Source: Alphaproteobacteria bacterium (lineage in GTDB: Bacteria > Pseudomonadota > Alphaproteobacteria > UBA9219). From it: a stretch of 46,662 nt of DNA. The DNA lies in assembly GCA_028690155.1 (NCBI GenBank), contig JAQVBU010000016.1, positions 1-46,662 on the forward strand, written 5' to 3'. Positions 1 through 43,631 of the stretch are shown here, in pieces. Position numbers and translations under genes: made by a program. Each line of letters opens with the position of its first letter. The first letter of the stretch is position 1. Under the pieces are notes generated by a model that was not told the origin of the DNA, ran no database searches, and saw nothing but the letters and a program-made list of their open reading frames with translations.

Positions 1-147
1 TTCTTCCTTCTTGTCTTGACCTTCTTCCTTCTTGTCTTGACCTTCTTCCTTCTTGTCTTGACCTTCTTCCTTCTTGTCTTGACCTTCTTCCTTCTTGTCT
101 TGACCTTCTTCCTTCTTGTCTTGACCTCCTTCCTTCTTGTCTTGACC
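1..147 (-). repeat. 21-bp minisatellite, seven copies (GQDKKEE)
   Basis: The unit 'ttcttccttcttgtcttgac'+c occurs seven times head to tail, starting at the first base, so the array may continue outside the window. Copies 1-6 are identical and the unit at 127-147 has one change (GQDKKEG). The length is a multiple of three, so copy-number change keeps the reading frame of the host gene. The encoded peptide is highly charged and probably disordered. Confidence 0.95.
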
Positions 148-3100
148 TTCTTTTGACGTTTCAGCAGGAACGATCTCCGCCAGCTTCTCCGCTTCCGTCA
201 ACGTTTTCTCAGATGCATCAACCCCGGCTGCTGCCACATACTCGTTTTCTTTTTGCCGGATTGCGTCCTCGAAGTATGCCTTGTACTCGCCCTCGGGAAG
301 GCCCGAAAGGCCCTCGGCTTTCATCGCGGCCAATGCCGCCAAGGCATGCTTATAAAGGCCGACGCCTGCTAGACTATCCGTGCCGTTAAGAATTGCCTGA
401 AGCGCTTTGACCCGTTGCTTCTCGGTCGGAGCCTCGCCGGAACGGTATACTTCGCTTAAATTTCCCCATTCAGCTTCTTCCCCGGTATAGAAAATCCATT
501 GGGGACGCTTATCCACCGGGAGCAAAGTCATGCTCCCCGCTTTGATCAAGCGGGCGGCCTTATAGAGATCTTGTTTTATCCAGCTATTTTGCTGCTCGTC
601 AAGCGTGAAGAGCTGAGCGTTCTTTGCCCCAGCAACGAAAGAATCCCTCATATCCTCGATATGCGTCTTCGCCACTGTTTCAAAGTCAAACGCCTGTTGC
701 ACGTCTTCTTGGGCCGACGATTCCTCGAAAGATATCCAATCGATGGATAACGGCTTCATGTCGTTAATTTTCTTTTCCAAATCCTCAACCTTACTCGAAA
801 GCTGCTCGTATCCGGGCTTATCCTTCAGGAAGGTCAACACGCTCAACGCATAGGGATAGTACCCAAGTGCAACAAAATCTTCTGCGACGCCAATAAGAGG
901 CTTTAACACCACGGCGCCTTCATCGGGACTTACATCGCCTTTGTTAAAAGTCTCTCTGAAATAGTTTGAAGCAAAGGCAAGCTTGTGAATGGCCTTACTA
1001 AGAGCATCATCATTGGCAGGGATCGTTTTATCCCGAGGAGTCGAGGAAATTCTTTCCTTGATCTTCTCATCGAGCATCACAGAAACCTCATGGGGATTAA
1101 ATACATAGGATCTCTGCTGCTGAAAAGCTTTGCCCCCAACTTCTTCATCACCGACTTCATCCGAAATGGTTATTTTCTTCTTGTCTTGACCTTCTTCCTT
1201 CTTGTCTTGACCTTCTTCCTTCTTGTCTTGACCTTCTTTTGACGTTTCAGCAGGAACGATCTCCGCCAGCTTCTTCGCTTCCGTCAACGTTTTCTCAGAT
1301 GCATCAACCCCAGCGGCCTCCGCATACACCTCTTTTCTCTTTTTGATCGAATCCTCGAGGCTCAATTTTGTGTACTCGAAAAGCCCAGAAAGGTCCTCAC
1401 CTTTCACCGTAACCAGAGCCGTTAGAGCGTGCTTGTAAAGCCCCGCCTTTGCCAAATTGTCCGCTCCGTCGAGAATGTCTCGGAGACCGTCAACACGTTT
1501 ATCATTCCAGACAATCCATTCGTCCCTTTCGTCGTCTGAAAGCGGCCTCGCGCTTTCCGTGCTAACCAAAGTTATGATTCCCTTTTCGACAACCAAAGAG
1601 GCCTTATTCCTTCTTTCCGTGCTAACCAAAGTCATGCTTCCCGCTTTGATAGACGAAGCGGCCTTATCGATAGCTTCGTTTATCTTGTCGTTCTTCTCCA
1701 AATCCGACGTAAAGAGCCCAGCCTCCTGCGCCGCCTCGGCAAAAGCATCCCTCATATCATCGACAGAAGTCTTCGCCACCGTTTCGAAGTCAAAGGCCTG
1801 TTGCACGTTCTCGGATGCCAAGGGAGCCTCTCCTTTGACCTTCCTTTCCAAAGTCTCGACAATAGCCGAAATCTTGTCGTATCCGGGCTCATCCTTCAGG
1901 AAAGACAAGACGCCCAACGCGTAAGAAAAATATCCCTGCTTAATAAGGCCCTCGGCCGGGCTCAAAAAGAAACTTAACTTTTGAGCGTTCGCGTCGACGT
2001 CTAACCCTTTCTTGCCAAACTTTCTTTCAAAAAATTCGAACCCCTTCGAGGTAAAGATAAGCCTATCAACGGCCCCTTCAAAATTGTGCTCGTTCAAGGC
2101 TATCGTTTCGTCCCGAGGAGTCGATGAAATTCTTTCCTTGACCTCCTCAAAAGACATTCCGGCAATCTCATGGGGATTAAATACGTAGGATCTCTGCTGC
2201 TGAAAAGCGTTGCCCCCAACTTCTTCATCACCACCTTCAACAGCTTCCTCGTCGGGCGGTTCTTCCTTCTGTTCTTCCGAAATAAGCGAAGCAGCCTTCA
2301 GCGGTTCATACATGCCCCCGTTAACGAAGCTCGGCCAGCGAGGAAGCGCCTCTAAAAGCTCTAACGCTTTCATACGGTCTTCCAAGTTGTTGATGGAGGT
2401 TGCCACATAAGCTTCATCCTGCTGCTCCTTCAAAAAGGTCAGCACATTCCGCCCATAGGCATAATATCCTTGGTCGAGCAATCCCTCAACACCCAAAGCC
2501 ATGAACTTCATAGCTGCCACACGTTGTTCATGGGTAGCCGACGCGTCAAAAAGAGAAACCTGCGCCACTATTCGACGGGCCTCCGTTAGATTTTCCGACA
2601 GCTCTTCCTCCGGCTTCATCGGGAGTACAACCCCCCCTTTGCGCAAAGAAGCCGGCAACAAAACCTTGCTTCCCTCTTGAATAAGCGCCGCCGCTTCAGA
2701 AAGAGCTTTCTTGTCGGGTTGAATCAAATCGTCATGCACCGACCCCTCAATCTCGTCCGAAAACGCACGAGATGACATTGCCACCACACGCTGTAGATCA
2801 AACACCGAAGACGGAACCTCTTTCGGTTGAGAAAGGGGCGCTTCCTTCTGATGCCGCATCTTGTCAAGCCCCTCTATGACATCTAAAGGCAGCTGTTCCG
2901 TCATGAAAGGATAAAGTCGTTCTCGCACATAAGCGTGGTACCGCACGTTTAGGGCTTCGCAGAGCGGATGAAGGGCGTAAAAAGAAACGAACAGCGCCTT
3001 GATATCGTTTTCAGATCTGGCACGCTTTATCTCTTGAATCGTTTCATAAAGCTCTACAATCGTTGCTGTTATCTCTTCCGAAGCAGGCTGTTCTTGGGAG

Positions 3101-3294
3101 GAAAGAATTTCGCTTTTGAGTTCATCAGCTGTTATCTCTTCCGAAGCAGGCTGTTCTTGCGAGGAAAGAATTTCGTCTTTGAGTTCATCAGCTGTTATCT
3201 CTTCCGAAGCAGGCTGTTCTTGCGAGGAAAGAATTTCGTCTTTGAGTTCATCAAAAGAAAGTTCTGTAAGTTCGTTAGAAGAGTACGTCATCAT
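1..3294 (-). CDS. Large modular-repeat protein, family unknown (3' end beyond window)
   Basis: I translated the minus strand by hand: the frame starting at ATG 3294 (or the adjacent ATG 3291) has no stop down to base 1, giving 1098 codons with the C-terminus outside the window. A G-rich site ('GGGGGATTTT') precedes the start. Layout by residue: 17-79 three copies of a 21-aa acidic repeat ('DELKDEILSSQEQPASEE'); about 160-345 a first module ('VFDLQRVVAMSS', 'DQGYYAYGRNVLTFLKE'); about 359-710 a second ('YVFNPHEIAGMSFEE', 'QGYFSYALGVLSFLKDEPGY', 'AFDFETVAKT', 'GLYKHAL'), ending in GQDKKEE repeats; about 719-1098 a third near-copy, ending in seven more GQDKKEE-type units. No signal peptide or membrane segment is visible, so the protein is probably cytoplasmic or exported by an unrecognised route. 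The helical 'GYYxYALxVL' hairpins resemble TPR-type folds, but I recognise no family. It is a paralogue of the next gene (3556-5082). Function unknown. Confidence 0.85.
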   Translation of the reverse strand, partial: MMTYSSNELTELSFDELKDEILSSQEQPASEEITADELKDEILSSQEQPASEEITADELKSEILSSQEQPASEEITATIVELYETIQEIKRARSENDIKALFVSFYALHPLCEALNVRYHAYVRERLYPFMTEQLPLDVIEGLDKMRHQKEAPLSQPKEVPSSVFDLQRVVAMSSRAFSDEIEGSVHDDLIQPDKKALSEAAALIQEGSKVLLPASLRKGGVVLPMKPEEELSENLTEARRIVAQVSLFDASATHEQRVAAMKFMALGVEGLLDQGYYAYGRNVLTFLKEQQDEAYVATSINNLEDRMKALELLEALPRWPSFVNGGMYEPLKAASLISEEQKEEPPDEEAVEGGDEEVGGNAFQQQRSYVFNPHEIAGMSFEEVKERISSTPRDETIALNEHNFEGAVDRLIFTSKGFEFFERKFGKKGLDVDANAQKLSFFLSPAEGLIKQGYFSYALGVLSFLKDEPGYDKISAIVETLERKVKGEAPLASENVQQAFDFETVAKTSVDDMRDAFAEAAQEAGLFTSDLEKNDKINEAIDKAASSIKAGSMTLVSTERRNKASLVVEKGIITLVSTESARPLSDDERDEWIVWNDKRVDGLRDILDGADNLAKAGLYKHALTALVTVKGEDLSGLFEYTKLSLEDSIKKRKEVYAEAAGVDASEKTLTEAKKLAEIVPAETSKEGQDKKEEGQDKKEEGQDKKKITISDEVGDEEVGGKAFQQQRSYVFNPHEVSVMLDEKIKERISSTPRDKTIPANDDALSKAIHKLAFASNYFRETFNKGDVSPDEGAVVLKPLIGVAEDFVALGYYPYALSVLTFLKDKPGYEQLSSKVEDLEKKINDMKPLSIDWISFEESSAQEDVQQAFDFETVAKTHIEDMRDSFVAGAKNAQLFTLDEQQNSWIKQDLYKAARLIKAGSMTLLPVDKRPQWIFYTGEEAEWGNLSEVYRSGEAPTEKQRVKALQAILNGTDSLAGVGLYKHALAALAAMKAEGLSGLPEGEYKAYFEDAIRQKENEYVAAAGVDASEKTLTEAEKLAEIVPAETSKEGQDKKEGGQDKKEEGQDKKEEGQDKKEEGQDKKEEGQDKKEEGQDKKEE
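1173..1233 (-). repeat. Second GQDKKEE minisatellite, three copies
   Basis: The same 21-bp unit is found in the same frame of the same gene: two perfect copies and one ending in 'KKI'. It sits at the equivalent point of the preceding protein module, directly after the shared segment 'EIVPAETSKE'. The whole module including its repeat tail has therefore been duplicated, with array lengths diverging afterwards. Confidence 0.93.
1555..1674 (-). repeat. 60-bp diverged tandem duplication inside the repeat gene
   Basis: Bases 1555-1614 and 1615-1674 share 'tttccgtgctaaccaaagt' and align over 60 bp with substitutions only. The protein shows the pair as 'KAASSIKAGSMTLVSTE' followed by 'KASLVVEKGIITLVSTE'. 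The third module (near 481-570) has a single copy ('KAARLIKAGSMTLLPV'), so this is a local insertion into module two. Confidence 0.8.
3058..3246 (-). repeat. 63-bp tandem repeat, three copies, N-terminus of repeat gene
   Basis: Three consecutive 63-bp units occur at 3058-3120, 3121-3183 and 3184-3246. The last two are nearly identical and the first has small changes. Each encodes 21 residues of the type 'ELKDEILSSQEQPASEEITA'. The period is a multiple of three and keeps the frame. A fourth degenerate start ('SFDEL') precedes it. Confidence 0.92.
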
Positions 3295-3373
3295 AAAATC
3301 CCCCGTTAACAAGGTGCCGCTATGGCCGGATAGAGCCTATCGCCGACAGAAATAGTAAAAAAAAGCGCTTGAT

Positions 3374-3555: not shown

Positions 3556-5082
3556 TTACAAAGTCATACTTTTTCGACCGACGCGGCCGCCCAACAAGCC
3601 AAAAGCCGATCCCTTCCCGAACACCCGACGAACCGCAGACGTTTGGCGATTTTTGTTTCCATAGGCCAAATCGTCCCCTGCATATTTCCGACGATAGGCT
3701 TCTTGCGCGACGCCAACAAGCCCGCCAGCCATGGAACTAACCCGAACAACCAGTCCCACAGCGGCCGTCTTAAACCTCTGCTTCAACGCATTCCCACCAC
3801 GATGTCGTCCCCCTTCTTCGGGCTCATCCCCACAATCTTGGTTAGAGGCGTGTTCTTTTCTGAAAACCTCAAGCGACTTGCCCTCGCGCCAAGCCGCTTC
3901 TCTTTCTTTGATCTCTTTGTCAAAGTACACGCCGTATTCATCAACGTTGCTCAATCTAGGAAAGACCTGAATCCGCGCCACATCCAAAACCGCAAGAGCG
4001 TATCGATAGTAGCCAAGGCTCGTAAGAGCGTCTGCGCTGTTAAGAATGGATTGAAACGCCACGACGCGTTGTTTTTCGGTGGCCGGTTTTCCTGAACGGT
4101 AAACGTCTCTAACGTTCTCTCTCGCCGCATCCAGGCCAAGGCTCGGATCGTTGCTTCTCCCAACAGCCGAAAGATTCGAGTGCACCAGCATATCGCGCTG
4201 TTTATCGGCGGGGACAAAAGCCATACAGCCCGCCCAAAGAAGCGACGCCGTTTCAAGAATCTTCCTTCTGGCAAAGGGAGAGGGGGCAATGTTCCTATCC
4301 GAACGAACGATGGCTTCTGCCAACTTTTCAACGGGCATAGCCGCCACCGTTTGAAAATCAAACACGAGGGGCGCGTGAAAACCCGTCACGGACACTCCTT
4401 GTATAGCCTGCCGCTCCAACTTCCCGAGCAACCCTGCGATTTTATCGTGGCCACGTTTGGTCTCTATGAAATAGAGCATGGACAGTCCGAACATATAATA
4501 ACCCTGCTCAATACAGTCTTGGGCAAGTCCGGCCATAGCTTTCAAGGACAAAATTCGATCATTGTCCGACGAGCTGACTTTGTCGAAAACGTCGTTGACG
4601 CGGCTTGATGTTTGCGAAAGCCGATCGGCAATCCTTCGCGGAAATTCTCCGTCGAAAGAAACATTGGGGTCCCGATGCGATTTTAAAATCGTTTCCTCAG
4701 CCTTTTCTAAGGACAACGCCGCAAAGGACAACGGATCAAAATCAAAAAGACTTCTTTGCGAATCCCCTTCCATATCTTTGGGGATGGAATGAAGAATGCT
4801 CGCGGCAAGGGGATAATATCCTTGTCCCGCAAGGGCCGTTGCAAAGTCCTGCACAGTCCGATGGGCCAACGCACGGTCCATCTCGGTCGCTTTCGGATTT
4901 TGGGCGATCTCATTAACATAATCCGAGATATGAAAAAGTTCTTGAACGGCTTTCGGTAGAAAACTTTCGTCGAAAGAGATCATCGGATCCCGATACATCC
5001 CTTTAAAAATGCCGAGGGCTTCCTCAAAAGAAAGTTTCGAAAAATTTTGGACGATGCCGCTTTTCCTGACCGACTGCATCAT
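3556..5082 (-). CDS. Modular-repeat protein, paralogue of the preceding large gene
   Basis: About 508 residues, function not recognised. The open frame extends to a TTG at 5112, but 'AAGGAG' at 5092-5087 sits 4 or 7 bases before two adjacent ATGs (5082, 5079), so the start is one of these. The first gene also begins Met-Met. Two early modules carry 'QGYYPLAASIL' (about residue 87) and 'EQGYYMFGLSMLYF' (about 190). A third part carries 'FDFQTVAAMPVEKL', then 'YRSGKPATEKQRVVAFQSIL' and 'LGYYRYALAVL'. The last matches 'YRSGEAPTEKQRVKALQAIL' of the neighbour closely, showing common descent. Unlike the neighbour it has no minisatellites, and its last 80 residues are basic and Gly-rich with a weakly hydrophobic stretch ('AAVGLVVRVSSMAGGLVGVA'). 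It lies head to head with the OGT-like gene. TPR-like scaffolding is a guess only. Confidence 0.85.
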   Translation of the reverse strand: MMQSVRKSGIVQNFSKLSFEEALGIFKGMYRDPMISFDESFLPKAVQELFHISDYVNEIAQNPKATEMDRALAHRTVQDFATALAGQGYYPLAASILHSIPKDMEGDSQRSLFDFDPLSFAALSLEKAEETILKSHRDPNVSFDGEFPRRIADRLSQTSSRVNDVFDKVSSSDNDRILSLKAMAGLAQDCIEQGYYMFGLSMLYFIETKRGHDKIAGLLGKLERQAIQGVSVTGFHAPLVFDFQTVAAMPVEKLAEAIVRSDRNIAPSPFARRKILETASLLWAGCMAFVPADKQRDMLVHSNLSAVGRSNDPSLGLDAARENVRDVYRSGKPATEKQRVVAFQSILNSADALTSLGYYRYALAVLDVARIQVFPRLSNVDEYGVYFDKEIKEREAAWREGKSLEVFRKEHASNQDCGDEPEEGGRHRGGNALKQRFKTAAVGLVVRVSSMAGGLVGVAQEAYRRKYAGDDLAYGNKNRQTSAVRRVFGKGSAFGLLGGRVGRKSMTL

Positions 5083-5292: not shown

Positions 5293-7473
5293 ATGAATTT
5301 CAATAAAATAACAGAAACAGCCATCAACGCTCAAAACAATGGGCAATTTGACAAGGCTGAAGTTCTTTACCAAGAGATCCTTCGTGCACAGCCGCGCAAT
5401 CCCTTGGCCCTTCACAATCTCGGAACGCTTCGTTTCCGCGCGGGAGATTATAAACAAGCCGCCGTCCTTATAAGGCAATCCATTGATTGCGGAAACGCCG
5501 CGCCCGAAGCGTTCAGCAATCTAGGCTTGGCCCTTGCCGCCGAGCGACGTTTTGACGAGGCGCTGGACGCCTATAAAAAAGCCATCGCGCTTCGCCCCAA
5601 AGCAGCGGATAATTATAATCACATGGCGGTGTCCCTTATGGAAAAGGGGGATCTTGAAGAAGCCGTCTCGTGCGGCCGCAAAGCCGTCGCACTTGATCCA
5701 AAGCTGTTTCTTGCGCACTACAATCTGGGCGTCGCGCTTCAGCGGCAGGGAAAACCGGCCGACGCCGTCAACGCCTTCCAAGAGGCCCTTTCTCATTTTC
5801 CCAATTTCCCGGAAGCCTACTGTAATTTGGGGCTTGCCTTGGCGGCGCAGGGAAAACGTGAAGACGCGGTTGAGGCTTATAAAAAAGCGGTTGCGCTTCG
5901 GCCCGACTTCCCCGAAGCCTATAACAATATGGGCCAACCGCTTAATGAATTGGGCCGGTTCGAGGAGGCCGCCGAAGCGTATCGGCAGGCCATCGCACGG
6001 CGGCCCGACTATCCGGAAGCATCCATCAACCTTGCCCACACATTGCGTCGGAACGGACGGATCAACGACGCGATCAACGCGTGCCGCAAAGCGTTGACGA
6101 CCTCCCCTCAAAACACCAAAGCAAGGGTCGAGCTCGTCAGCCTTTTACGTCAAACGTGCGCTTGGCACGACAGCGCCGCGGATACACGACTCCTGCTTTC
6201 CATGATTCAGGATGTCGAGCCGTTCTTGCTTCTTTCCGCGCCGTCTTCTTTGGCCGAACAATTTTTCTGCGCCCGGCATTGGGCGTCTCAGTTCACAAGC
6301 CAAACGCCGTTTTCTCACGACCGCTCGCGGTCGCCTTCGCGGCTTCGTATCGGCTATCTTTCCTGCGACTTCCATCTTCACGCGACCTCGTTCTTGATGG
6401 CCGGACTTTTCGAAGAACACGACCGCGACCGCTTCGAAATCTTCGGCTACGGCTACGACCGCGACGACGGCAGCGATATTCGCAAGCGCGTGATCAACGG
6501 ATTCGACCATTTTACGGATTTCTCCAAAGTTCCATCGCGCCATGCTGCCCGTCGCATTTATGAGGACAAAATTGATATTCTCGTCGATTTAAAGGGATAC
6601 ACGAACGGCACAAGGACGGATATTTTGACCGACCGCCCAGCCCCCATTCAAGTCAATTACCTAGGCTATCCAGGCACGATGGGCGCCGATTTTATGGACT
6701 ATATCCTTGCCGACGCCTACACAGCCCCCATGACGCATCAACCGTTCTATACCGAAAAAATCGTGCATCTTCCGCATTCCTATCAGCCCAACGACGCCAA
6801 GCGGACCATCGCCCCATTACTTCAGTCCAGAAACGATTGCGGACTGCCGGATGAAGGGTTTGTTTTCTGCTGTTTTAACGCGTCATTTAAACTTTCGCCC
6901 GAATTCTTCGCGGTCTGGATGCGGTTGCTGAAGGCCGTCCCCGGAAGCGTTCTGTGGCTTATGGCGATGCAGCCCGAAATCGAGAAGAGCCTGCGCGAGG
7001 AAGCCGAAAAGCATGGTGTCGCCCCCTCGCGCCTTGTTTTCGCCCGGGCCATTCCGCTTCAGCACCATTTGGCCCGGCATAACTATGCGGATCTTTTCCT
7101 CGACACCCTTCCCTACGGAGCCCACACGACGGCGAGCGACGCTTTGTGGGCGGGACTTCCCGTGTTGACATGCTTGGGCGACACTTTTGCGGGACGGGTT
7201 GGGGCCAGTTTGCTTCACGCCGTGGGCCTGCCGGAACTTATCGCCTCCTCGTTAGAGGACTACGAAGCCATGGCGCTCGATCTTGCCCAACATCCGGATA
7301 AACTGGCGTGCCTTAAAAACAAGCTGGCTCATCAGAACAAAAGCGCCCCTCTTTTCGACACCAAACAGTATACGCGCGATCTTGAAGCCGCCTATACCCA
7401 TATGTGGAATCTTTGGTGCAAGGAACGGACACCGCAGGCCTTCGCCGTCGCCGATATAAAAGATCAAGCGTAA
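5293..7473 (+). CDS. TPR / O-GlcNAc-transferase-like glycosyltransferase (GT41)
   Basis: 726 residues. Roughly the first 290 residues are tandem TPR units with the usual 'A..nLG.aL...G....A...y.kAi.l.P' pattern (for example 'PEAYNNMG', 'PEAYCNLGLALAAQGK'). From about 350 comes a GT41 catalytic region: 'LRIGYLSCDFHLHATSFLM' with the His expected near the active site, 'VDLKGYTNGTRTDIL', 'QVNYLGYPGTMGADFMDYIL', 'NASFKLSPEFFAVWMRLL' with the Lys of the UDP site, and 'LPYGAHTTASDALWAGLPVL'. Family enzymes transfer a sugar from a UDP-sugar to Ser/Thr of proteins, with the TPRs holding the substrate. Bacterial members have few known targets. It is divergent from the two modular-repeat genes, which could be substrates (inference). 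The ATG lies behind only a weak purine-rich site. It ends 4 bases from a convergent gene. Confidence 0.88.
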   Translation: MNFNKITETAINAQNNGQFDKAEVLYQEILRAQPRNPLALHNLGTLRFRAGDYKQAAVLIRQSIDCGNAAPEAFSNLGLALAAERRFDEALDAYKKAIALRPKAADNYNHMAVSLMEKGDLEEAVSCGRKAVALDPKLFLAHYNLGVALQRQGKPADAVNAFQEALSHFPNFPEAYCNLGLALAAQGKREDAVEAYKKAVALRPDFPEAYNNMGQPLNELGRFEEAAEAYRQAIARRPDYPEASINLAHTLRRNGRINDAINACRKALTTSPQNTKARVELVSLLRQTCAWHDSAADTRLLLSMIQDVEPFLLLSAPSSLAEQFFCARHWASQFTSQTPFSHDRSRSPSRLRIGYLSCDFHLHATSFLMAGLFEEHDRDRFEIFGYGYDRDDGSDIRKRVINGFDHFTDFSKVPSRHAARRIYEDKIDILVDLKGYTNGTRTDILTDRPAPIQVNYLGYPGTMGADFMDYILADAYTAPMTHQPFYTEKIVHLPHSYQPNDAKRTIAPLLQSRNDCGLPDEGFVFCCFNASFKLSPEFFAVWMRLLKAVPGSVLWLMAMQPEIEKSLREEAEKHGVAPSRLVFARAIPLQHHLARHNYADLFLDTLPYGAHTTASDALWAGLPVLTCLGDTFAGRVGASLLHAVGLPELIASSLEDYEAMALDLAQHPDKLACLKNKLAHQNKSAPLFDTKQYTRDLEAAYTHMWNLWCKERTPQAFAVADIKDQA

Positions 7474-32418: not shown

Positions 32419-34326
32419 ATGTCACTCGCAAACATACCCCCATCCCTAGATGATCCTTTTATGTTGGCTCTCGATGCGTATAAAGAAAAACGCCTCGACG
32501 AAGCTCGGGTCTTTTGCCAAAACGCTTTGAGGGAAAAGCCGGATAATCCGGCTTGCCTCTATCTTATGGGCACCCTTGAATTTGATTTTCATCGTTTCGA
32601 CAAGGCCGAAGCGTTGATGCGCCGCTCGGTTGAGCTGATGCCGACCGTGGCGCAAACGCACTTTGGTTTGGCCCAAGTCTTGGCATCTTTGGGGAAAAAC
32701 CAAGACGCTCAAACGCATTACGAAAAAACGATCGAGCTAAAAGCCGATCACGCCGAAGCTTGGTTCGGGTTGGGAAACGTCCGTTCCCTTTTGGGACAAC
32801 GCGAAGAAGGGGCCAAGGCCTATGAAAAAACACTCGACCTGAAACCCGACCATGCCGCCGCGCTTAATAACCTCGGCGTCTTCTTCTGCGACAAAGGAGC
32901 CTATGATAACGCCGTTCGCCTCCACAAAAAAGCCCTAGCCCTTTGCCCCTCTTACGCCGCAGCTTACAATAACCTCGGCAATGCCTATAAAGGCCTAAAG
33001 AAATGGGATGAAGCCTTGTCCTGCTATCGTCAGGCGCTTGATCTCGACCCCAACCTTTTCCAAGCGCTCAACAATATCGGGCTTTCGGTCATGTATGGGA
33101 AAGGCGACCTCCACGAGGCGGCGCGTTTTTTCAGAAAAGCCCTCGACATTCGCCCTGATAACGTCGCGGCCCTGACTCATCTGGGGATCACGTTTTGCAT
33201 GCAAGGAAACTTTGAGGAAGGCGCGGCGTGCTACGAAAAAGCGTTAGCCGTCGATCCTCACTACCGGGATGCGCTGAACAATATGGGCAACGCGCTCAAA
33301 GCGCTGGGACGAACGCAAGAGGCGCTGGACTACTACAAGAGCGTTCAGGATCTGACTCCGGACGATCCTGAACTTCACAACAGCATCGCCATGGCCTATC
33401 TGGCGCTTGGACGCTTTCAAGAGGGTTGGAACGAATACGAATGGCGGTGGAAGTCGTCCCAGTTCAAAGGCGTTGACCGTCTTCTTCCCGGCCGCCGCTG
33501 GCAAGGAGAAAAGGGCCCGGGAAAAACTCTTTTTATCTACGCGGAACAAGGCTTCGGCGACACCATTCAATTTTGCCGTTTTGCGTCGCTCGCGGCAAAA
33601 GAAAAGGGGTTACGCGTGTTGGTCGAAGCCCAGCCGGAACTCGTTTCCCTGCTCGCCTCGCTCGAGGGGGTCGAAAGTGTCTTTCCCCTTAAACGTAAAC
33701 TTCCCAAATTTGACTATCACTGCGCCATGCTCTCCCTTCCTTTGGGGTTTCAAACGACGGCTGACACCATCCCGGCCAATGGGCCTTATCTTTTTGCCAA
33801 CCCTGAAAAAACGCGCCTGTGGGCGGAACGCTTGGCCGAAGCCCCTTCAAAAAGCCTTAAAGTCGGTCTCGTCTGGACCGGCAATCCACGGCGTTTCTCT
33901 TTAGATCTGGCCATGACCAACGTCCGCCGTTCGTTGAACGAGGACAGCTTGGCTCCTCTTGCCGATCTTCCGGGCATTCGGTTCTATAGTCTCCAAAAGA
34001 AGGGGTTTTCGCTTTCATCCGATTTTCCTATCGTCGATCTTATGCCGCTATGCGCCGATTTTTCCGACACGGCCGCTTTTATCGACAATCTCGATCTTGT
34101 GATCAGCGTGGATACCGCCGTCGCCCATCTGGCTGGCGCCATGGGCAAGCCCGTGTGGCTTCTTAACCGCTTCGATTCCTGCTGGCGCTGGTTTCGAGAC
34201 CGGGAGGACAGTCCATGGTATCCGACGATGCGTCTTTTCCGCCAGTCGGCTCCGGGAGACTGGGACAGCGTTATCGACCGGGTACGTGACGAATTAAAGC
34301 TTTTAACGCAAACAGATCACTTATAA
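32419..34326 (+). CDS. TPR protein with heptosyltransferase-like (GT9-type) C-terminus
   Basis: 635 residues. About ten TPR units fill residues 10-330 ('PAYNNLG'-like pattern, e.g. 'YAAAYNNLGNAYKGLKKWDE', 'YRDALNNMGNALKALGRTQE'). The C-terminal half starts 'EGWNEYEWRWKS', then 'LFIYAEQGFGDTIQFCRFAS', 'KVGLVWTGNPRR', 'FIDNLDLVISVDTAVAHLAG', 'PVWLLNRFDSCWRWFRDRED', the arrangement of ADP-heptose:LPS heptosyltransferase-like proteins common in alphaproteobacteria and often near glycan or flagellin modification genes. No such cluster is here, so the acceptor is unknown. Second TPR glycosyltransferase in the window, but the catalytic domain differs from that at 5293. Followed by cysS after 32 bases. 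Confidence 0.85.
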   Translation: MSLANIPPSLDDPFMLALDAYKEKRLDEARVFCQNALREKPDNPACLYLMGTLEFDFHRFDKAEALMRRSVELMPTVAQTHFGLAQVLASLGKNQDAQTHYEKTIELKADHAEAWFGLGNVRSLLGQREEGAKAYEKTLDLKPDHAAALNNLGVFFCDKGAYDNAVRLHKKALALCPSYAAAYNNLGNAYKGLKKWDEALSCYRQALDLDPNLFQALNNIGLSVMYGKGDLHEAARFFRKALDIRPDNVAALTHLGITFCMQGNFEEGAACYEKALAVDPHYRDALNNMGNALKALGRTQEALDYYKSVQDLTPDDPELHNSIAMAYLALGRFQEGWNEYEWRWKSSQFKGVDRLLPGRRWQGEKGPGKTLFIYAEQGFGDTIQFCRFASLAAKEKGLRVLVEAQPELVSLLASLEGVESVFPLKRKLPKFDYHCAMLSLPLGFQTTADTIPANGPYLFANPEKTRLWAERLAEAPSKSLKVGLVWTGNPRRFSLDLAMTNVRRSLNEDSLAPLADLPGIRFYSLQKKGFSLSSDFPIVDLMPLCADFSDTAAFIDNLDLVISVDTAVAHLAGAMGKPVWLLNRFDSCWRWFRDREDSPWYPTMRLFRQSAPGDWDSVIDRVRDELKLLTQTDHL

Positions 34327-40930: not shown

Positions 40931-41866
40931 ATGTCAAATCCTGGAACAGAAATCGCCCTTCCCGGCTCGGTTGAAATCGCGGCTGTAAATCCTAACGAAT
41001 TGCCGGAGAGCTTCTTTGATGCTGTCGATGAATGCGTACTCAATGTCAATCGACAAGCGAACGCCCAACAAGCTGCAAATGAGGAAGAAAGAAAAAAGGC
41101 TGTAGAGAACGAAGAAAGGAAATGGAAGAAGGCACAAGCACGGGCCGAAAACTATGAACGAATTTCATCCGTTCTTTCCAAAGTTACGTCCCCATTTTTA
41201 ACCCCCGTTGCAAAAGGGGTTGATGTTGGCACTGCCTACGTTGGCAAAAAATACAACGCCTATAAAGCGGCAAAAAGAGCAAAGATTAAAAGTGAAAACA
41301 AAGAACGGCTTTTGATGTTATTCAATGCCGTTCAGCCGATTATTTTCAAAACAAAAGGCATGTCGGCCATTGAAGACAAAAGCAACTTTGAGCTTTTTGT
41401 TGTGAATACAAGCGTCGGCAACATAAATATTCATAAGGGGAACTGCCTCCATTATGTGGCGGCTGAAAAACTAGAAAATCCGAGCAATAAAAATCCGAAT
41501 GTTGTGGTTCTATCGATTTTAGATAACGGTCATATAAAGATTCATGGAAATTACAGGGCCTATGAAAAGAAGATGGGGAAAAGTCCTGTAAAGATCCACA
41601 TCGTTTCAAGCAGCTATTCTGACTGCATGCCTTCGATGTACTGGAGTGATCGTGCTAGAGTTATTCATTTTTGTGATCAACAATACGAAAACAAAGACTC
41701 AAGCCTTGAAGCCTATCGTCGCTTTAATAAGCGCGCTGTAAGTAGAATAACGGGACACGTGAAGGAAAACGTTGTGAACGAAGCCAGAGATACGTTTATA
41801 CGTATGATCGCCGAACAGAATCTTTATGCGAGAAACGGCCAAGCGTTAACAGTGCTTGATATATAA
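40931..41866 (+). CDS. A+T-rich orphan gene, coiled-coil N-terminus
   Basis: 311 residues, no family recognised. Residues 40-75 are a charged coiled coil ('EEERKKAVENEERKWKKAQA'). About 80-125 is basic ('KKYNAYKAAKRAKIKSENKE'). The C-terminal half looks like a mixed alpha/beta globular domain ('FELFVVNTSVGNINIHKGNC', 'VVVLSILDNGHIKIHG', 'VKIHIVSSSYSDCMPSMYWS') with several Cys. No signal peptide or membrane segment. It is visibly richer in A+T than its neighbours and has no strong ribosome site, hinting at recent acquisition. A host- or phage-directed role is possible but unsupported. Convergent with the DegP-type gene. Confidence 0.7.
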   Translation: MSNPGTEIALPGSVEIAAVNPNELPESFFDAVDECVLNVNRQANAQQAANEEERKKAVENEERKWKKAQARAENYERISSVLSKVTSPFLTPVAKGVDVGTAYVGKKYNAYKAAKRAKIKSENKERLLMLFNAVQPIIFKTKGMSAIEDKSNFELFVVNTSVGNINIHKGNCLHYVAAEKLENPSNKNPNVVVLSILDNGHIKIHGNYRAYEKKMGKSPVKIHIVSSSYSDCMPSMYWSDRARVIHFCDQQYENKDSSLEAYRRFNKRAVSRITGHVKENVVNEARDTFIRMIAEQNLYARNGQALTVLDI

Positions 41867-41889: not shown

Positions 41890-43323
41890 TTAACCGCCCA
41901 GCATCATTGTAATCTCATGATTGCCGCGGCGGATGGTTAGTTTCCAATGCGATGGCTTTGCGGCAAACGCGTTTATCGCCTCGCGGACGTTTACGATTTC
42001 TTGGCCATTGACGGCGGCCACGATGTCGCCCGGCACAAGGCCGATCCGCGCCGCAACCGAGCCGGGCTTAACTTCGGTCACGACAACACCCTCGCGCGGA
42101 TCGGAAGGCAGGCCAAGCTCTTCAACAACAGCGGGCGATACATTCGCAAGCGTCGCTCCGCTCGCCGGATTGCGGCCCTTGACGACGGTCTCGCGCCGAG
42201 ACGGATCTTCGGGCGGCGCGATCAGATCAAGCGTCACGGTACGCGTTTTGCCGCGGCTCACGACCTCAAGCTCCGCCTTCGCGCCGATGGACAAAGCCGC
42301 AATGCGATACCGGAACGCTTCCGGGTCCTCAATCGTCTTTCCGCCTACCGAAACGATCACATCGCCCGCCTTGATCCCTGCTTTAGCAGCAGGGCTTGAG
42401 GGATGCGCGCTCTTCACCAAAAAACCCATGGGCCGGTTCAGACCTAGCGACACCGCAATGTCTTGAGAAACTTCCTGCCCATCAAGCCCCATCCACGGAT
42501 GCATCATGCGGCTTTTGCCCTGCTTGGCCGCGCCCATCAAAACGCGCACCATATTCGACGGCACCGCAAAACCGATGCCCATGTTTCCGCCGTCGCGCGA
42601 AAAAATCGCCGCGTTGATTCCGATCAACTTGCCGTCCATCGTGACCAAAGCGCCACCAGAATTTCCCGGGTTAATCGCCGCATCCGTTTGAATAAAATAG
42701 CCCAAATCGCCCGCGCCGACCGCTTTGTGCGCCACCGCCGAGATGATACCCGAGGTCACCGTCTGCCCAACCCCAAACGGATTGCCGATAGCCAAAACCA
42801 AATCGCCGATTTCCGCGTCGTCCGAATCGCGAAGATCAAGAAAGGGGAAGTTTCCGCCTTTGGTGCTTTCCAAGCGCAGCACCGCCAAATCGGCCTTGTC
42901 GTCAGTCAGAACGACCTCGGCATCGAACTCGCGCCGATCCGACAGGACAACGCGAATTTCATCCGCACCGGCGATCACGTGGCGGCTCGTCACCACCAGC
43001 CCGTCTTCGCGCACAATCACGCCCGATCCCAAGGCGTGCTCCATACGTTCGCGTGTCAGTCCGGGAGCCAGAGCACCACCAAAAAACTGGCTGAAAAATG
43101 GATCGTTGAAAAACGGCGATACGCGTTGCTGCACCTTTTTTTGCGTATAGATGTTCACCACCGCAGGCGTGACCTTTTTAACCAACGGCGCAAAACTGAG
43201 CCTTATCTGCTCCCGCGATTGAGGAACAAAGACCTCGGCCCAGCCGTTTGAGGAAACGGTAGAACACAAAAGAAAAAAACAAAGGAAAAGCGACGTTCTT
43301 CTCATACGAAAGAGGATAAGCAT
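41890..43323 (-). CDS. DegP/HtrA-type periplasmic serine protease (Do)
   Basis: 477 residues from ATG 43323, or 471 from ATG 43305; the open frame runs on through tRNA-His to 43593, which is an artefact. Signal peptide 'RRTSLFLCFFLLCSTVSSNG'. Catalytic triad: His in 'VVTSRHVIAGADEI', Asp in 'LTDDKADLAVLRLE', Ser in 'AAINPGNSGGALVTMDGKLI'. Two PDZ domains follow ('MGFLVKSAHPSSPAAKAGIK', 'GVVVTEVKPGSVAARIGLVP'). It degrades or chaperones misfolded envelope proteins. A hairpin in the leader takes in the G-rich site and first ATG. Confidence 0.92.
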   Translation of the reverse strand: MLILFRMRRTSLFLCFFLLCSTVSSNGWAEVFVPQSREQIRLSFAPLVKKVTPAVVNIYTQKKVQQRVSPFFNDPFFSQFFGGALAPGLTRERMEHALGSGVIVREDGLVVTSRHVIAGADEIRVVLSDRREFDAEVVLTDDKADLAVLRLESTKGGNFPFLDLRDSDDAEIGDLVLAIGNPFGVGQTVTSGIISAVAHKAVGAGDLGYFIQTDAAINPGNSGGALVTMDGKLIGINAAIFSRDGGNMGIGFAVPSNMVRVLMGAAKQGKSRMMHPWMGLDGQEVSQDIAVSLGLNRPMGFLVKSAHPSSPAAKAGIKAGDVIVSVGGKTIEDPEAFRYRIAALSIGAKAELEVVSRGKTRTVTLDLIAPPEDPSRRETVVKGRNPASGATLANVSPAVVEELGLPSDPREGVVVTEVKPGSVAARIGLVPGDIVAAVNGQEIVNVREAINAFAAKPSHWKLTIRRGNHEITMMLGG

Positions 43324-43352
43324 CCCCCTCGCTTTTGAAAAGGGGGTGATGG
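43321..43352 (-). promoter_or_regulatory. Hairpin covering the degP-type start site
   Basis: On the minus strand 'CCCCC' (43346-43342) pairs with 'GGGGG' (43328-43324), and 'CAT' (43351-43349) can pair with the ATG at 43323. The G-run is the only candidate ribosome site for that ATG. The structure begins directly at the tRNA-His CCA end. Confidence 0.45.
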
Positions 43353-43426
43353 GGCGGTCGACGAGACTTGAACTCGCGACAACTCGGACCACAACCGAGG
43401 GCTCTACCAACTGAGCTACGACCGCC
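43350..43426 (-). tRNA. tRNA-His (anticodon GTG), CCA encoded
   Basis: 77 bases folding as a cloverleaf on the minus strand: acceptor 'GCGGTCG'/'CGACCGC', D-arm with 'AGTTGGTAGA', anticodon stem 'CTCGG'/'CCGAG' with loop 'TTGTGGT' (GTG), T-arm 'GCGAG TTCAAGT CTCGT'. The extra 5' G opposite the discriminator C is the G-1:C73 identity pair of tRNA-His. CCA is present in the DNA. The DegP-type gene starts 26 bases downstream. Confidence 0.96.
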
Positions 43427-43510
43427 AAAAATAAAAACCGCCAGCCCTCATAAAGGAGAGGAAGGCGGTTGGCAACCCCTGCCATGCAGAAAGAAAATTT
43501 TTCCGTCCTT

Positions 43511-43539
43511 TTGTCACGCAAGGTGTTGCATGTTGTAAA
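43511..43539 (+). promoter_or_regulatory. Possible glnA promoter
   Basis: 'TTGTCA' (43511-43516), 17 bases, 'TGTAAA' (43534-43539): 5/6 and 4/6 consensus matches, about 95 bases before the glnA ATG. I see no sigma-54 -24/-12 motif. Confidence 0.35.
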
Positions 43540-43560
43540 AAAACTTGGCAAATTTGTCAA
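43532..43560 (-). promoter_or_regulatory. Promoter of tRNA-His (and degP-type gene)
   Basis: Minus-strand 'TTGACA' (43560-43555), a perfect -35, 17 bases, then 'TACAAC' (43537-43532). It points at tRNA-His, whose 5' end lies about 100 bases downstream. Confidence 0.5.
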
Positions 43561-43561
43561 G
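43544..43561. promoter_or_regulatory. 18-bp near-palindrome between glnA and tRNA-His
   Basis: 'CTTGGCAAATTTGTCAAG' is symmetric except for one pair. It overlaps the minus-strand -35 and lies just downstream of the plus-strand -10 candidate, a suitable place for an operator acting on both genes. Confidence 0.4.
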
Positions 43562-43631
43562 AGGTTAGACTTCTTGTCCGTCTTGATCCTCATGCTGCGT
43601 TAACCTTCCTCCGGATAAAAGGATATCCGCC

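Follow-up and report, generated by a model that had tools for sequence, protein, structure and literature searches.

Which protein is encoded by a minus-strand reading frame that runs open off the end of its contig? The question arises in a stretch of 46,662 nucleotides (hereafter the window) from an alphaproteobacterium of the UBA9219 lineage (assembly GCA_028690155.1, contig JAQVBU010000016.1), where the frame, here called gene 2, starts at the ATG at 3294, or possibly at the TTG at 3312, and exits at the left edge after 1098 stop-free codons. The answer proposed here, tentatively and with somewhat less than even confidence, is a lineage-restricted cytoplasmic multivalent scaffold carried on an oligomerising inner-membrane anchor. 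As the preliminary description of the window had claimed, this long open frame is a real gene: in 300 sequences of 3600 bases drawn from a first-order Markov model of like composition, no strand stayed open for more than 211 codons, the longest runs averaging 123. Besides, when its repeated parts are compared (units 2-3 vs. units 4-5, 311 codons), the differences at codon positions 1, 2 and 3 number 115, 88 and 141, which, along with a ratio of nonsynonymous to synonymous rates (dN/dS) of 0.43, is as expected if the frame codes. Since the window makes up the whole of contig C21, in a genome of 2.1 Mb, gene 2 leaves the contig itself and not merely the window. The contig ends within a 21-bp tandem repeat encoding (EGQDKKE)n, and it is this assembly break within a repeat that cuts the gene, bearing out the earlier warning that a giant gene of this kind is easily missed, or indeed truncated, by gene callers. 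The frame and its repeats are laid out as follows:

1..3294, minus strand: gene 2, open frame, first 1098 codons of a larger gene
3065..3253, minus strand: 63-bp repeat, three copies, in the acidic N-terminus of gene 2
1177..1238, minus strand: internal linker, three copies of the 21-bp EGQDKKE repeat
1..152, minus strand: terminal linker, 7.2 copies of the 21-bp repeat and contig break point; the same repeat ends contig C27

Gene 2 comprises five related helical units in the order B-A-B-A-B, i.e. two full tripartite modules preceded by a B unit. Of the three equal modules first proposed, the tandem helical arrangement and the charged linkers are retained but not the count; actually, the GYY..YAL motif occurs three times (residues 276, 454 and 811), while AFDFETVAKT (500 and 868) and LYKHAL (619 and 980) occur twice each instead of the three times stated. 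The GYY and LYKHAL hairpins occupy equivalent places in two related unit types, the profiles of which align as homologues (hhalign probability 96.6, E 6.8e-10). The units are:

2350..2817, minus strand: unit 1, B type, divergent, residues about 160-315
1825..2187, minus strand: unit 2, A type, residues about 370-490
1315..1809, minus strand: unit 3, B type, residues about 496-660
757..1116, minus strand: unit 4, A type, residues about 727-846, all-helical in AlphaFold
229..705, minus strand: unit 5, B type, residues about 864-1022, all-helical in AlphaFold

AlphaFold modelling, suggested at the outset for a single module and run on units 4-5, returned helices only (mean pLDDT 76.9, pTM 0.50, six sequences).

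As for the missing part, the remainder of gene 2 and its 3' end are most likely to lie on contig C27. Searched with gene 2 DNA, the whole genome yielded a single other locus, namely the last 130 bases of C27 (98% identical), which end in the EGQDKKE repeat, in frame, and are continued by 407 further codons encoding in order a linker, a glycine-rich membrane region and a C-terminal domain ending with three cysteines, up to a stop. The leftward extension once advised for finding the stop is halted by the end of C21 itself and probably resumes on C27. If the C21-C27 join holds, the full protein would reach at least about 1500 residues, a lower bound that leaves repeats in the gap uncounted. The next gene on C27 lies ahead of rpoB and rpoC:

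L012:14983-13286: gene 3, 565 codons; rpoB and rpoC beyond it by eye

Gene 3 matches the C27 tail closely (45% over 362 amino acids, E 2e-76) and the N-terminus of gene 2 weakly (26% over 111 amino acids, E 1e-3, against four sequences only; 28% identity when aligned directly). As it unites relatives of the C27 tail and of the gene 2 N-terminus in one frame, it supports the join. It contains no units, only the N-terminal, anchor and C-terminal parts. Upstream of gene 2 stands a paralogue with units in the order A-A-B:

3556..5082, minus strand: gene 1, 508 amino acids from the ATG at 5082, preceded by AAGGAG
4759-5061, minus strand: gene 1 unit V1
4405-4758, minus strand: gene 1 unit V2
3877-4374, minus strand: gene 1 unit V3
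3559-3807, minus strand: shortened anchor of gene 1, without a C-terminal domain after it

By sequence comparison, genes 1, 2 and 3 are three tandem paralogues ahead of rpoB; neither this paralogy nor the probable continuation on C27 had been noted in the preliminary description.

What the gene 2 tail, gene 3 and gene 1 have in common is the glycine-rich hydrophobic region with a conserved GxxxG, here termed the anchor. In an alignment of 11 sequences, glycines 49, 53, 92, 96 and 103 are conserved, with G49/G53 and G92/G96 at GxxxG spacing, and alignment and hydropathy together place these motifs in hydrophobic helices, as in glycine-zipper membrane proteins. The model of the C-terminal part, which is poor (mean pLDDT 55), shows three long helices in the anchor. 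Of the 11 scanned proteins that extend into the region, 10 carry a net positive charge ahead of their third hydrophobic stretch and a neutral or negative one behind it; gene 1, which shows no such third stretch, is the exception. A positively charged flank stays on the cytoplasmic side of a membrane (positive-inside rule), and this charge pattern would accordingly put the C-terminus outside.

Besides, the anchors of genes 2 and 3 are nearly identical inside diverged flanks. When gene 3 is compared with the tail of gene 2, identity at third codon positions is 95-100% over tail residues 65-154, against 20-55% in windows wholly outside that stretch (85 and 75% in the two windows spanning its edges); the anchor stretch gives a dS of 0.105 and a dN of 0.132, against a dS of 2.1 for the N-terminus and a saturated dS for the C-terminal domain. 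This pattern is explained if the anchor was recently copied from one gene to the other. The anchor dN/dS is 1.26 (116 codons), and with 10 nonsynonymous and one synonymous differing codons out of 91 (third positions, p 0.054) positive selection was considered and is not claimed. The pairs of units give a dN/dS of about 0.43 (0.40-0.48), below 1, and rpoB compared between genus genomes gives 0.046, a contrast that is indicative only as it sets paralogous units against orthologues.

Searches of Pfam, NCBIfam, PHROGs and PADLOC and fold searches named no function for the family, and no known domain was recognised in these libraries or in the Protein Data Bank (PDB), in agreement with the first reading of the sequence; the profile matches obtained were weak and none to a characterised family was convincing. 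They comprise Pfam TMP_N with gene 2 (E 0.027, 15.4 bits for a cut-off of 27), two PHROGs matches with function unassigned there (PHROG 11300 with the C27 tail, E 0.0066, and one with gene 2, E 0.016) and the PADLOC candidate-defence model PDC-M16A with gene 1 (E 0.0081 and 0.045, over about 70 of 900 positions). Fold searches with the two models against the PDB, and with the units against BFVD, gave no convincing match; the second looks, which covered Foldseek's own matches only, listed no clear family. None of three peptide strings occurred in the collection of papers searched.

The units are scarce. Within the order they occur in two of 34 genomes, own included, and searches of 10 other genomes of the genus, two of them just 79-82% complete, did not find them. 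The lone credible relative outside the own genome is a 170-residue protein from another family of the same order (genome G031), matched by gene 1 (E 2.3e-5) and gene 2 (E 0.0033) and recovered at E 5.6e-10 among 4326 frames by a profile built without it; its alignment score exceeds all 2000 shuffles with three of the four B units, and 269 of 2000 shuffles equal or better it with unit 3. A search of 145 genomes with gene 2 matched 13, own included, from which G031 remains once the others are set aside. Nine of the 13 (gene 2 residues 289-443, best E 1.4e-4) hit what we take to be methylmalonyl-CoA mutase and are read as chance, since they cover linker and most of one A unit, the sister A unit lacking the best-matching residues; eight of these nine alignments were inspected, L017 yielding none. 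Matches in G029 (E 0.0024, in a charged linker) and G007 (E 0.007, internal stop) were also discarded. A separate match, in G015 (E 0.0096), falls within or near an SMC-like frame by eye. A class-wide sample of 385 genomes, in which G031 was not reported, gave three matches, namely the own genome, G328 (E 0.0024) and G356, the last a nucleotidyltransferase by eye and attributed to chance (E 1.4e-4, later 4.9e-6 but preselected). Scans of genomic-contig and viral-contig collections with gene 2, and of viral contigs with A2 as query, revealed no relative, and a scan of plasmids with gene 3 gave nothing useful. The phage collection gave just two matching records (E 0.009), which fall in a presumably RtcB-like protein and look like chance.

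The anchor is more widespread: its core profile finds 10 of the 34 same-order genomes at E<=1e-3, own included, and 16 at E<=0.05, the weak scores being uncounted since Gly-Ala composition can inflate them. Six of the 10, again with the own genome, had contributed profile rows and four are new (G003, G010, G023 and G026); an earlier, longer profile (A3) had found six of 34 at E<=0.01. The family is present in two of the three families of the order searched. By eye, its members are laid out as variable N-terminus, anchor, linker and tail, the tail being helical-looking in G003, G011, G019, G022 and G026 (aligned), and Cys- and/or His-rich in G001, G009, G010, G023 and an additional own-genome copy. 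That the relatives' C-terminal domain might be a unit moved to the other end was rejected (hhalign probability 0.2 and 0.6 per cent). Frames of the family in G001 and G009 are likewise open to the contig end. In G009 (L031:1-2633), two tandem family genes lie beside a presumably RecJ-like gene, the first leaving the contig inside a Cys/Asp/Thr-rich repeat, as gene 2 does in its own repeat; the G001 member L055:5406-6665 adjoins a gene similar to that RecJ-like neighbour. By eye, L183, L186 and L200 (G010, G023 and G001) apparently contain two glycine-rich membrane regions each and share the Cys-rich tail motif C.DP...CVE(K/R)VSFNE.

With respect to genomic setting, rpoB was matched in 20 of 25 family genomes, own included, and for nine of these relatives the genes lying upstream of it were inspected by eye. 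A helicase, which from its motifs we take to be PcrA/UvrD-like, lies within about 2.7 kb of rpoB in four of the five genus members read (G002, G003, G004 and G007), G005 and four members of other genera having different neighbours there. In the own genome the helicase sits on contig C2 and is followed by a fourth family member, with a Cys/His-rich tail (L056:6904-8214), and in G001 the helicase is followed at the same place, at the contig end, by a family gene (L030:10280-11011). From these arrangements, the helicase-rpoB junction looks like a gathering site of the anchor family. The other side of the gene 2 and gene 1 flanks holds housekeeping genes by eye, with rpoB and rpoC on the C27 side. 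Among the matches listed, a window protein, presumably RelA-like, is 80% identical to that of an alphaproteobacterial metagenome-assembled genome (MAG) and 71% to that of a MAG titled Micavibrio sp., a title that is the depositor's label. This second MAG agrees with G019, a genome assigned to the family of the window, in both the position and the E-value of its match. Elsewhere in the window, two proteins containing tetratricopeptide repeats (TPR), by their look presumably O-GlcNAc-transferase-type enzymes, are encoded at 5293-7473 (plus strand, divergent from gene 1) and 32419-34326 (plus strand). A tRNA-His gene (43350-43425, minus strand) lies inside the 5' part of a long, presumably HtrA-like frame (41890-43593, minus strand), the true start of which is thus probably downstream of the tRNA. 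A 311-residue orphan frame (40931-41866, plus strand), without a Pfam match above cut-off, stands where G+C, taken in 2-kb steps, is lowest (0.46).

In the proposed mechanism, the five units on charged flexible linkers would form a long cytoplasmic arm presenting several copies of one predicted binding surface, the three-helix glycine-zipper anchor would insert in the membrane and probably pack into oligomers, and the C-terminal domain with its three terminal cysteines would lie in the periplasm. Gene 1, with units and a shortened anchor, and gene 3, without units, would be paralogous variants in a family that may change through repeat slippage in linkers, duplication of units and copying of anchors between paralogues. 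Several points weigh against this scaffold. It has no known partner, cargo or phenotype; its topology is read from hydropathy and charge, the C-terminal model being poor; the C21-C27 junction is deduced rather than sequenced, and the N-terminal match of gene 3 is weak; and the unit fold has no clear match in the PDB (Foldseek best E 0.34, the best second-look Z of 9.1 being within the chance range for helical proteins). Besides, gene 1 shows that the C-terminal domain is not essential in every copy, and as units were not found in the 10 searched genus members (two of them incomplete), the role would not be core. The glycine-rich region could also be a secreted membrane-active part, which leads to the foremost alternative, unlikely as it is: an antibacterial or prey-directed effector, the zipper of which enters a neighbour's membrane, with helical units and linkers helping it to be secreted or delivered and its variable C-terminal domain acting as payload. 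CdzC/D, TelE and Tde1, as presented in passages of PMC5380434, PMC10434224 and PMC10240207, join helical or variable parts to glycine zippers; Micavibrio, the name in that depositor's title within the same family, is that of an epibiotic predator (passages of PMC3189940); an arms race would fit the fast divergence of units and anchors relative to rpoB, as well as the modular shuffling; and gene 1 weakly matches PDC-M16A. Yet a signal peptide is not evident by eye, a large further domain follows the anchor, LXG and toxin profiles are unmatched (LXG at E<=1 in Pfam and NCBIfam), and reading by eye of the listed neighbouring frames, which had a lower limit of 150 or 100 residues and took in C27 only in part, with the genome as a whole not surveyed, brought up no gene recognisable as one for secretion or immunity.

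Ranked just behind the effector, and likewise improbable, is weak constraint, in which a lineage-restricted family shaped by repeat slippage, gene conversion and decay has little selected function and gene 1 is already truncated. Gene 1 stopping just past its anchor, linkers made of repeat DNA, units confined as described and high dN/dS, with nearly all differing anchor codons nonsynonymous, speak for it. However, the frames of 1098, 508, 407 and 565 codons are all intact, unit pairs remain under a dN/dS of 1, AAGGAG precedes the gene 1 ATG and a single unit survives in another family. An origin in a phage or mobile element, for instance as a tape measure protein, which is long and helical with a hydrophobic stretch, is suggested by the length, the repeats and the sub-cut-off TMP_N and weak PHROGs matches; it is very improbable, as structural phage genes were not recognised by eye in the flanks read, where rpoB, rpoC and housekeeping genes stand instead, and neither the viral-contig scans nor the chance-like phage-collection matches supply a relative. 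The scaffold is hence favoured, tentatively, over both an effector and weakly constrained drift.

A more speculative reading, regarded as improbable, is a cassette system in which a near-constant glycine-zipper anchor is copied between paralogous envelope genes while saturating divergence affects their periplasmic domains as well as their cytoplasmic arms, which have 0, 3 or 5 units. If true, large, fast-changing proteins would be built at a hot spot located at the junction upstream of rpoB, possibly for prey or rival contact in a Micavibrio-like lineage. More generally, an undescribed helical unit and a glycine-anchored protein family are added in a poorly studied bacterial group, the repeat that makes such a protein interesting also breaks its assembly and so costs its annotation, and the signature of anchor copying offers a testable case of domain-level recombination making new envelope proteins.

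Compared with known systems, the family resembles TPR and Sel1 proteins in stringing together helical units whose packing positions hold small and aromatic residues, in the generic fold matches of the units to HAP40, SRP68, 14-3-3 and the sNASP TPR, which stay within what chance gives for helical proteins, and in the weak match of the relatives' helical-looking tails to a Sel1 protein (E 0.029). A TPR or Sel1 unit, however, has 34-36 residues, against about 120-165 here; no TPR or Sel1 profile of Pfam matches gene 1 or gene 2 at E<=1, and TPR_Vps8 matches the lone G031 unit at E 0.22, under cut-off. Glycine-zipper (GxxxG) membrane proteins, reportedly treated by Kim et al. in 2005 (a work cited in PMC10240207 and PMC10434224), share with the anchor the conserved GxxxG in hydrophobic helices, but here an arrangement of three helices is flanked on its N- and C-terminal sides by large, variable regions of the same protein, and the Pfam glycine-zipper families do not match the anchor proteins. 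Regarding bacterial toxins, as far as the passages concerned describe them, CdzC/D are glycine-zipper proteins of 84-86 amino acids encoded beside a type I secretion system (PMC5380434), far from the 508 residues of gene 1, the at least about 1500 of gene 2 (if joined) and the 565 of gene 3; TelE is a type VII protein with an LXG domain and its zipper at the C-terminus (PMC10434224), while the anchor here is central; and Tde1 is a type VI glycine-zipper effector (PMC10240207). What all three have in common with the family described here is a glycine zipper joined to variable parts, together with quick diversification.

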